A DNA stretch of 50,750 bases from Candidatus Methanomethylophilaceae archaeon (GTDB taxonomy: Archaea; Thermoplasmatota; Thermoplasmata; Methanomassiliicoccales; Methanomethylophilaceae). Below, one piece after another: positions 22,499-25,102 of the stretch (positions within the stretch are counted from its first letter, which is position 1; the number at the start of each line of letters is the position of its first letter). Made by a program: the position numbers and the translations under genes. The stretch lies in contig SKGM01000003.1 in assembly GCA_007117455.1 (NCBI GenBank), positions 1-50,750 of the forward strand. The letters run 5' to 3'. Below the pieces are notes generated by a model that worked only from the letters and a program-made list of their open reading frames with translations, was not told the DNA's origin and did not search any database.

Positions 22499-23182
22499 TC
22501 ACAGACGGTACTGCCTGACGGCCTGGCTCACCAACAACGGGACCCTCTTCCGGACCATCCACCAGCAGTATGCCGAGACCAGCCCGAATGCGGCCATCGA
22601 GCTCAGGTAGGCCCAGGGGAACATGCCGCTGTACAGGGGCAACATCAGGAGCTGGAAGCACAGGTTGACCCCCACCGCCTGGGAGAAGAACTCCCAGGTG
22701 TGGTCCCTGACCACGCCCTCGCCGATGGTGGTGCCTGTGGAACAATGGAGGAACACCTGTTGGAGGGTGAGCAGGGCGACGATAAACCAATCGAACCAGG
22801 CGGGGTCCTCTGCGAGGGTGAGGGTATAGAAGGCCAGCCCGAAGCCGAACGTGGCGCCCATGCCGATTCCGAGCGAAGTGCCGTAGAACACGGTGTCCAA
22901 TCGGCGTTGGAAACGGGGAAGGTTCAGTATCACCAGTTTCACCAGTTCCAGGACGAGGGCGAAACCGACCGCGACGAATATGGATGACCAGGGGAACCAG
23001 GTGTAGGCGGAGAACAGTATGACCCCGAGGACCATGCCGATGGCGAAGAGCAGGAAGAGCTTGCGGTCCTCGAAGAAGGCCTTGTCGGTCTGCGGATAGG
23101 TGTAAGGGCCGATCGCGTAATACAGCAGCACCAATGCGGGCCCGATGCCCATGACCGCCGCGATGGCCATTACCAGGTCCAT
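22499..23182 (-). CDS. Multi-span membrane protein, possibly PrsW-like
   Basis: The 227-residue protein has about seven hydrophobic helices. A charged residue pattern inside helices, LELVKLVIL, GATFGFGLAFYTL and LHCSTGTTIGEG, resembles the PrsW/CPBP type of intramembrane protease (E..K, GxxFGxxF and H.. motifs), but the usual EE pair and second histidine are not clear. It might therefore be a degenerate or non-catalytic relative. It is on the minus strand after the PAPS-reductase-type gene and has 39 bases of separation from it. Confidence 0.6.
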   Translation of the reverse strand: MDLVMAIAAVMGIGPALVLLYYAIGPYTYPQTDKAFFEDRKLFLLFAIGMVLGVILFSAYTWFPWSSIFVAVGFALVLELVKLVILNLPRFQRRLDTVFYGTSLGIGMGATFGFGLAFYTLTLAEDPAWFDWFIVALLTLQQVFLHCSTGTTIGEGVVRDHTWEFFSQAVGVNLCFQLLMLPLYSGMFPWAYLSSMAAFGLVSAYCWWMVRKRVPLLVSQAVRQYRL

Positions 23183-23221: not shown

Positions 23222-25102
23222 TCAGGCCACGATTCGGTCATGATAATGGGCGACCATGCAGGAACGGAGGCATCGACCGCAACGGTCACAGGCCTCGGAC
23301 ACCCTCAGGCCTCCATCGATCCTTATGGCCTTCCGAGGACAGCCTTTGGCGCATATGCCGCACTCGGTGCACATCTGATATCTCACCAGCGCCTTGACCG
23401 TCAGGTCGAATAACTCCTCCGCCGACTCACGGTTGGGAGCGACTACCGAAACCTGTCCTCCAGCGAAGACCTTGGCGGTGGCTCCCTTGTGACGTAGGAG
23501 GGCCAGGTCGAACTCCTCCGAATAGCGGACGTCCCCGACCGTCCTCAGGGAGTCCCGCATCATCTCCAGCGGCCTCCGCAGAGGCGTGCGGAGGACGGCC
23601 TCAACCGAATGGCCTCCAGCAGCGCAGGGGGAGACCCCTTTCACCATCTTCAGGGACACATTGTCGGAGCCCTCCGGACGGAGCCTGATGTCCATATCCT
23701 CCGCCAACCGGAGCATCTTCGGTGGCAGGGACTTCCATCTCCAGAAACCCTGCTCCACGAACTCGGGGGGTAGACCCCTCCCCTCTGCCCAGTCGCGAAG
23801 ATGGGAATCCCATCTGGCATAAAGCTCAGGATGGATGGACCTGGTCCGCTCCCAATCGCTGCCCAATGATGCCGGGCATAGGTAGCAGCCTATACGTGCG
23901 TAATCCATCTCGTAAAGCGGGTTGTACTCCGCCCCCTTCATCCAGATATATGCCCAGACCTCGGCGGCGCTCCAGGACCGGATGGGATTCATCACGGTCT
24001 GGTTGGGCACGAAGGGATTACGGGCCACGAAGCGGGTGTCGGAGCGGGAGAATGACTCCAAGGAACGGTTCCCTTCCACGGTTATCGTCCCCCTGGGATA
24101 TAGTGATGATATGCCTTCCGTCATCGGACCCAACTTACAACTCTTGCAGCACCAACGGAAGTCCTTGGCCGGGGGGCCGAAGGCCTCCACGTTCTGCCAG
24201 AAGGAATCCCCGGCATCCATCTCATGCAGGGTGAGTCCCCTTCGGGATGCGAATTCCCTGACGTGGTCCACGGTCTCCGGGAACTCCAGACCGGTGTTTA
24301 CGAAAAGCAGGTCCAGAGGCCCGAGGGCCTTCTCAGCGAGAAGATATGATGCCAGCGAGTCCTTCCCTCCCGAGAACGATGCGGTCACCGGCTGCCTCTT
24401 ACCCTTGGCGAAGGAACGGATGTCGCTAAGCGCATTGGACTCCAGTCTCCGGAGATGCTCAATGTTGGCGGCCACGAACACATCCCGTGTCGACCGAGGG
24501 CCGGCATCGAAGGGTGCTTTGCAGACCCCTTTGACCTTGAACGCCTTGTCAGCATCCATGATCGACCGGGAGTCGGCACGTGCGACGGCGGCCATGACCG
24601 AGGCGCCGCTCCTCACCACCAAAGGGTCTCCGGAGGAGAAATCCCCCATCACCTTTCTGATCGTGCTGCCAGGATAGGTCCTGCCCTGAACATGACCACT
24701 CAGCTTCCCGCATTCGATCACGTTGCTCACCGCATGAGGCTCGATCATTGAGGCCCCGTCGGCCTTGAGGTCGAGGAGGTATCGCCTCTCCACAAGGTCC
24801 CATCTCAAGGTCCCGACCACCGAGCCGCCGATCACCACCTCCTCGGTACGGTCCTCTCCTGCGACCTTGTTAAGGAACACAGGTCTTTCCTCCAGGGGAG
24901 AGTCGGAGCCGAAACTCCTGCGGAACAATGACCTCACCAGCTCCTCCCCCCCATCCATGGCCGGCCGGATGTCCCCGGGGGAGTTCACCTCGAACACTCT
25001 TGGTTTACTGGAACAGTGGGAGCAACCCCTCCCGAGCAGGAGGGTGCCACAGCTGTCACACCATCGCATCTCCTCCTTACCGTGGGACCTGTGTTCGGCC
25101 AT
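23222..25102 (-). CDS. PAPS-reductase-type PP-loop protein with zinc ribbon and ferredoxin
   Basis: The 626-residue multidomain protein has an N-terminal zinc ribbon (CDSCGTLLL...CSHCSS, about 15-32), a PUA-like region (about 110-175, with GHVQGRTYPGS), the PP-loop SFSGGKDSLAS near 245, a PAPS-reductase core with WCCKSCKLGP and GCYLCPAS, and a C-terminal dicluster ferredoxin (CTECGICAKGCPRKA and CDRCGRCLRSC). Methanogens have similar fusions annotated as phosphoadenosine phosphosulfate reductases. A PUA-like domain and zinc ribbon suggest an RNA or sulfur-transfer role rather than sulfate assimilation. Met12 (25069) is an alternative start. Confidence 0.82.
   Translation of the reverse strand: MAEHRSHGKEEMRWCDSCGTLLLGRGCSHCSSKPRVFEVNSPGDIRPAMDGGEELVRSLFRRSFGSDSPLEERPVFLNKVAGEDRTEEVVIGGSVVGTLRWDLVERRYLLDLKADGASMIEPHAVSNVIECGKLSGHVQGRTYPGSTIRKVMGDFSSGDPLVVRSGASVMAAVARADSRSIMDADKAFKVKGVCKAPFDAGPRSTRDVFVAANIEHLRRLESNALSDIRSFAKGKRQPVTASFSGGKDSLASYLLAEKALGPLDLLFVNTGLEFPETVDHVREFASRRGLTLHEMDAGDSFWQNVEAFGPPAKDFRWCCKSCKLGPMTEGISSLYPRGTITVEGNRSLESFSRSDTRFVARNPFVPNQTVMNPIRSWSAAEVWAYIWMKGAEYNPLYEMDYARIGCYLCPASLGSDWERTRSIHPELYARWDSHLRDWAEGRGLPPEFVEQGFWRWKSLPPKMLRLAEDMDIRLRPEGSDNVSLKMVKGVSPCAAGGHSVEAVLRTPLRRPLEMMRDSLRTVGDVRYSEEFDLALLRHKGATAKVFAGGQVSVVAPNRESAEELFDLTVKALVRYQMCTECGICAKGCPRKAIRIDGGLRVSEACDRCGRCLRSCMVAHYHDRIVA

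Follow-up and report, generated by a model that had tools for sequence, protein, structure and literature searches.

A predicted RNA-directed sulfur-insertion enzyme of the PAPS-reductase type in Methanomassiliicoccales archaea

We analysed a window of 50,750 nucleotides (contig SKGM01000003.1, positions 1 to 50,750), whose host is a Methanomassiliicoccales archaeon of the Methanomethylophilaceae, and we propose that a fusion protein of 626 residues encoded in it is an Fe-S sulfurtransferase that depends on ATP, is sensitive to oxygen and acts on RNA, probably tRNA. We give this reading a probability of about 0.6, and we infer the RNA substrate, the adenylation, the cluster ligation and the role of the ferredoxin. 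Sulfur insertion is favoured because a cysteine desulfurase takes the place of the ferredoxin in orthologues, and because the protein has a stretch and several motifs in common with BrxP of type 4 BREX. The family itself is already catalogued (NCBIfam PRK13795, NF010366-NF010369) and is functionally uncharacterised, our literature searches having found no functional studies of it; thus, what is new here is the reinterpretation. The features on which the argument is built are as follows.

23222..25102, minus strand: full coding sequence of an A-type PRK13795 protein; intact ORF, matching NF010366 at 1.5e-195 over residues 8-625.
25013..25063, minus strand: zinc ribbon, residues 14-30 (C15, C18, C27, C30), from cysteine conservation and weak DZR matches in relatives.
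24743..24970, minus strand: C2-like domain of the ArcTGT 'patch-forming' type, residues ~45-120, from TGT_C2 matches in relatives, the paralogue profile and fold matches to 1j2b and 1iq8.
24518..24727, minus strand: divergent PUA domain, residues ~126-195, from Pfam matches in the family, profile-profile alignment and fold search.
23870..24385, minus strand: PAPS-reductase-type PP-loop domain, residues 240-411, matching PF01507 (PAPS_reduct) at E=1e-41.
24356..24379, minus strand: PP-loop SFSGGKDS, residues 242-249, kept in all A-type, B-type and fusion proteins.
24146..24157, minus strand: invariant RWCC motif, residues 316-319, with predicted Fe-S ligands C318 and C319; aligns with the paired cysteines (CC) of APS reductase.
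23876..23890, minus strand: invariant GCxxC motif, residues 405-409, with predicted Fe-S ligands C406 and C409; aligns with the CxxC of APS reductase 2goy.
23387..23656, minus strand: TBP-like alpha/beta domain, residues ~483-572, from the structural model and profile matches.
23252..23386, minus strand: 2x[4Fe-4S] ferredoxin, residues 573-617, with eight invariant cysteines and Fer4 matches that are each below the cut-off.

An earlier note on this DNA had read a zinc ribbon, a PUA-like region, a PAPS reductase and a ferredoxin in one chain, and all four were recovered in an ORF that is intact at exactly these coordinates, with a strong PF01507 match and invariant cysteines. The TBP-like domain had been missed, and with it the chain has five parts, namely, zinc ribbon, C2-PUA, PAPS-reductase-type PP-loop, TBP-like domain and ferredoxin. 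The best NCBIfam model for the protein, NF010366 (PRK13795, 'hypothetical protein'), scores 651 bits, below its curated cut-off of 745. Among 56 aligned A-type sequences, the PP-loop core, the two cysteine pairs of the PP-loop domain and the ferredoxin cysteines (C578, C581, C584, C588, C605, C608, C611 and C615) are invariant, as are C15, C27 and C30 of the zinc ribbon, whereas C18 is found in at least 90%. PP-loop residue 243 is F or Y across A-type, B-type and fusion proteins. DZR matched weakly in 8 of 33 A-type sequences, and single Fer4 models of Pfam gave weak matches at residues ~573-617. The model of the full protein has a pLDDT of 87.5 and a pTM of 0.77, and its sole internal segment with pLDDT below 50 (residues 317-319) lies inside the RWCC motif. 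In this model the TBP-like domain, which follows the PP-loop domain and precedes the ferredoxin, has the topology beta-beta-alpha-beta4-alpha; the top matches of its profile are TATA-binding proteins, at E values of 0.003-0.01, and PF00352 (TBP) matches 5 of 13 family members, the best at 0.008.

The PUA domain of the 626-residue protein itself is below Pfam detection, and its presence is supported by relatives, by alignment to the paralogue and by the predicted fold. PF01472 (PUA) matches 20 of 33 A-type sequences, with a best value of 3.4e-6, and TGT_C2 matches four of the 33 and the paralogue as well. Over its whole length the A-type N-terminal profile can be aligned to the paralogue family (hhalign 100%, 1.6e-51), in which the PUA domain is clear (PF01472 1.2e-19, and 1.9e-23 in a relative). 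The paralogue profile in turn matches residues 432-579 of ArcTGT 1iq8 (7e-13) and PH0734 (1e-18), and the paralogue matches the C-terminus of ArcS (4e-18, NCBIfam). Structure prediction, proposed earlier as a check, bore this out: residues 1-215, modelled with AlphaFold2 (pLDDT 94.2), have as their top PDB fold matches AF0587, PH0734.1, APE0525, MCTS1, a Thermoplasma PUA protein, a Nip7 homologue and ArcTGT, and the full-length model retrieves CysH/APS reductases, FAD synthase and TtuA. The A-type family thus has in common with ArcTGT and ArcS, the enzymes of archaeosine synthesis, a C2-PUA tRNA-binding module, whereas their catalytic domain is unrelated to its own. ArcTGT and ArcS act on position 15 of the tRNA D-loop.

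The C-terminal part of the chain is exchangeable. One group of genomes, belonging to the phylum of Methanosaeta, keeps the part from zinc ribbon through PUA to PP-loop in frames of ~870-885 residues (11 of 13 fetched loci, namely, L154-L158, L160-L162 and L164-L166), and both of the two frames tested run directly into a complete class V aminotransferase (Aminotran_5, 8e-111 and 6e-124); the one fusion tested against NCBIfam matches SufS at 1.7e-109. A C-terminal domain of this kind in methanogens had already been noted by Yu et al. (PMC6286981). Since the fusion proteins nest inside the A clade (support for A plus fusions, 95/98), the TBP-ferredoxin part gave way to a cysteine desulfurase in the course of the A-type line. 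To us this domain swap is the strongest single clue that the TBP-ferredoxin part may concern sulfur supply.

The earlier note overlooked that there is a paralogue, that the family is broad and that it had been catalogued before. The closest named relatives of the 626-residue protein, at 77-69% identity, are from Methanomethylophilaceae and Methanomassiliicoccaceae. The host genome holds a second copy, the B-type paralogue, which has 639 residues, is 34% identical, has the same architecture and passes both NF010368 (604 against a cut-off of 588) and NF010367 (567 against 456). A PAPS_reduct match occurs in 61 of 61 sampled genomes of the order, nearly always in frames of ~630-700 residues, so the fusion is not a chance event, and near-complete genomes mostly carry two full-length family proteins. 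A-type proteins are also found in Methanothrix, Methanosarcinaceae, Methanocella and Methanoperedens, and in the phylum of Methanothrix and Methanosarcinaceae an A-type protein above the cut-off is usually accompanied by a B-type copy. By elimination, Methanosarcina acetivorans is probably the control genome whose protein passes the NF010366 cut-off, and genomes related to it have both types. Within Thermoplasmatota the family (E<1e-60) is present in 59 of 145 genomes and is nearly mutually exclusive with haem-copper oxidase, genes for which occur in 3 of 59 carriers and 55 of 86 non-carriers, these genomes being related, which means that the p-value is not to be taken literally. Class V aminotransferase matches are present in each genome of the order, and are full length (~1e-110) in most. 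A role specific to methanogenesis was considered and rejected: in the phylum sample the genomes with mcrA are 17, all from the order, and of 59 family carriers 42 are without it, strong A-type model matches without mcrA being found in G007 and G017.

Gene neighbourhoods were rejected as functional evidence. The neighbours of the gene include an M50 peptidase, an FAD oxidase, PvlArgDC, PAC2 and adenylate kinase; the M50 peptidase, a membrane protein, the FAD oxidase and adenylate kinase owe their conservation to vertical synteny in Thermoplasmatota, and these conserved neighbours were not seen at the Methanosarcinales loci read. Outside vertical synteny, no conserved RNA-related neighbourhood was found at the loci read, which tells against a role in RNA sulfur insertion. 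The membrane protein (22499-23182, minus strand; no Pfam match) lies 39 bases downstream of the gene, and counterparts stand beside A-type genes in the Thermoplasmata loci L093, L099 and L108. The B-type paralogue (L003:7113-9032, contig C26 of the host genome, G000) is near ORFs read as a TruA-like pseudouridine synthase and methionyl-tRNA synthetase, which may be chance. In one Thermoplasmatota genome (L102:8895-11021) the A-type gene is followed by a gene that reads as aldehyde:ferredoxin oxidoreductase-like.

One alternative is that the protein works as an assimilatory APS/PAPS reductase and receives its electrons from the fused ferredoxin instead of from thioredoxin. CysH enzymes combine a degenerate PP-loop with a catalytic ECGxH tail. 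The PP-loop domain is assigned to PF01507, the fold search was led by CysH-type structures and FAD synthase, and C318, C319, C406 and C409 align with 2goy as the full CC...CxxC [4Fe-4S] ligand set of the APS subtype, so that fold and cluster cysteines are common to CysH and the 626-residue protein. However, identity to CysH is 21-23%, the protein carries extra domains, and its C2-PUA module has no evident role in APS/PAPS chemistry. The ATP-type PP-loop is intact in 35 of 35 family rows (SFSGGKDS, against SFSGAED or TSSMED in CysH), and the C-terminal ECG[IL]H tail, present in both CysH controls, is absent from all 35 and from the protein itself. The earlier note's remark that no sulfate assimilation genes are nearby extends to genome level in the sampled relatives, which carry the weight for gene absences because the host genome is 68% complete. 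Of the 18 genomes of the order that belong to the phylum sample, none gave an ATP sulfurylase, and no full-length APS kinase was found in 61 genomes of the order, where the matches are nothing but short P-loop fragments scoring 30 bits or less; no CysH or CysD was recognised among the PAPS_reduct matches in the sampled genomes of the order, where matches outside the family are mostly short or weak PP-loop hits together with a few defence-like proteins. Because the PP-loop is intact, the tail absent and neither sulfate-activation genes nor CysH or CysD were found in the sampled genomes of the order, PAPS reduction by this protein is unlikely.

The main counter-evidence to RNA sulfur insertion comes from the literature. 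As cited in three papers (PMC3448663, PMC6286981, PMC10322725), homologues from M. jannaschii are reported to reduce APS or PAPS (Lee 2011; Cho 2013), and the reductase activity of MJ_0973 is given as low in Vmax or kcat (PMC3448663, PMC10322725). Yu et al. 2018 name the methanogen homologues, which have the architecture of the 626-residue protein over the full length, putative APS/PAPS reductases, a label that rests on the M. jannaschii proteins, and note that for many ANME and methanogens it is not clear where APS/PAPS would come from (PMC6286981). The authors of a 2023 study left the physiological role of the M. jannaschii homologues open, and M. infernus, which has the genes, was studied as an example of an organism whose genetic potential is not enough for it to grow on sulfate (PMC10322725). 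On balance, we regard assimilatory reduction as improbable. The earlier note preferred RNA thiolation to PAPS reduction, and motifs, gene absences, the C2-PUA module, the desulfurase fusions and kinship with BrxP speak for this preference; from these sequence features we infer that RNA thiolation is a plausible role, with more in its favour than PAPS reduction has.

This kinship raises another alternative, that the family makes phosphorothioate linkages in the backbone of RNA or DNA, as is known or believed of DndC, SspD and BrxP acting on DNA. BrxP matches the 626-residue protein with 140.7 bits and the paralogue with 150.3 bits over the stretch from PP-loop to ferredoxin, the reciprocal comparison of BrxP with PRK13795 gives 174 bits, and identity in the core is 29-34%. 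The RWCC motif aligns with RWC[CT] of BrxP, SspD and DndC. An intact PP-loop, RWC[CT] and GCxxC are common to the protein, BrxP and SspD, whereas in DndC the first cysteine of GCxxC is missing in the alignment used. With BrxP the protein also has in common the arrangement of an alpha/beta domain followed by a ferredoxin; in BrxP and some SspD an alpha+beta domain, likened to the Mog1p/PsbP fold, precedes a ferredoxin-like region (PMC12839542). Architecture and profile scores favour placing BrxP nearer than CysH, while the deep PP-loop tree does not decide the branching (AU p 0.34 for grouping with BrxP and 0.46 with CysH). Against backbone phosphorothioation, the family is inherited vertically as a core gene in two copies, no pglZ, brxL, DUF4007, dnd or ssp genes were recognised at the loci read, and the RNA-type C2-PUA module stands where the DNA-type DUF4007 would be, DUF4007 having no Pfam match in the protein. 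At BrxP loci there are pglZ/brxL, or a class V aminotransferase together with DUF4007. We regard phosphorothioation as unlikely. The boldest reading, in which the A- and B-type proteins would be two housekeeping RNA-modifying kin of the BREX-4 enzymes, each of PAPS-reductase type with a built-in ferredoxin or desulfurase, and in its most novel form would make a phosphorothioate of the RNA backbone as an RNA counterpart of DNA phosphorothioation, is very unlikely. Separately, a plasmid of Treponema saccharophilum (L114:8668-10299) holds an unannotated BrxP-like ORF with DUF4007 and a class V aminotransferase, apparently a BREX-4/Ssp-like system, and a few Methanomassiliicoccales genomes hold extra, divergent PAPS_reduct proteins in frames of 436-795 residues (G125:C27:10596-11129, G016:C21, G110:C5 and G075:C1), possibly defence-type phosphorothioation enzymes.

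Sulfur might also be inserted into, or an Fe-S cluster assembled on, a protein or small-molecule cofactor, with the PUA-like module binding protein or cofactor. The A-type PUA is divergent, which tells against RNA sulfur insertion as well; the family goes with genomes that are without haem-copper oxidase; and LarE is a PP-loop sulfur-insertion enzyme of a cofactor pathway (PMC9283937). However, the paralogue keeps a canonical PUA and TGT_C2, and the N-terminal matches of its profile among solved structures are RNA-modification or RNA-binding proteins, and we hold a cofactor role to be rather unlikely.

In RNA sulfur insertion as we envisage it, the zinc ribbon and the C2-PUA module would hold the RNA, and the intact PP-loop would take ATP and adenylate an oxygen of the target nucleotide with release of pyrophosphate. 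The Fe-S cluster predicted on C318, C319, C406 and C409 would then offer a sulfide or persulfide sulfur that replaces the oxygen, AMP being released, while the ferredoxin may give electrons to reduce the persulfide sulfur or the cluster; in some methanogens the sulfur-supply role would pass to the fused cysteine desulfurase. Characterised Fe-S thiolases have three cysteine ligands and leave one iron open, whereas the four cysteines here are the full ligand set of APS reductases, which counts against this mechanism. In its PP-loop chemistry, Fe-S cysteines and RNA-binding module the protein would work like TtcA, TtuA, NcsA and archaeal ThiI, although it belongs to another PP-loop subfamily (PF01171, the TtcA/TtuA/NcsA type, has no match in it at E<=1), has its cysteines at other positions, carries C2-PUA where those enzymes have THUMP or zinc fingers, and is fused to a ferredoxin or desulfurase. 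Fe-S-dependent PP-loop thiolases adenylate the nucleoside and deliver cluster-bound sulfide (PMC10067955).

As a first target we suggest 2-thiocytidine, for example s2C17, because ArcTGT and ArcS, the kin of the C2-PUA module, act in the D-loop, in which s2C17 also lies, and because the archaeal s2C enzyme was listed as 'to be determined' in a 2017 review (PMC5372739). The modification occurs in tRNA of M. maripaludis and P. furiosus (PMC7668247), and in T. kodakarensis it is independent of the sulfur-carrier Ubls of that organism (PMC11323500); the link is weak in Thermococcales. That s2C is the product is a guess, and an unlikely one. An s4U8 synthase replacing ThiI was rejected as a role, since ThiI-domain frames of 381-398 residues and B-type proteins co-occur in the same genomes and deletion of thiI abolishes s4U in M. 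maripaludis (PMC5372739). In Methanomassiliicoccales the ThiI-domain protein is short (207-209 residues in the two read, L174:1985-2614 on contig C62 of G000 and L175:1452-2075, and mostly ~210-290 in others), leaving no room for a THUMP domain, and in both genomes read its gene adjoins those of a Csl4-like exosome protein and a small methyltransferase.

Many methanogens keep this family in two copies, and studies of methanogens call its members sulfate-assimilation enzymes. Our reinterpretation predicts a PAPS-reductase-type, RNA-directed sulfur-insertion enzyme with an exchangeable sulfur-supply module. If the family does consist of RNA sulfurtransferases, reconstructions of sulfate assimilation in methanogens would be wrong on this point, a candidate would be at hand for archaeal thio-modifications that have no known enzyme, such as s2C, and housekeeping RNA thiolation would be linked to defence by DNA phosphorothioation. 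Because ferredoxin and cysteine desulfurase are exchanged in nature, the sulfur source can be tested directly.
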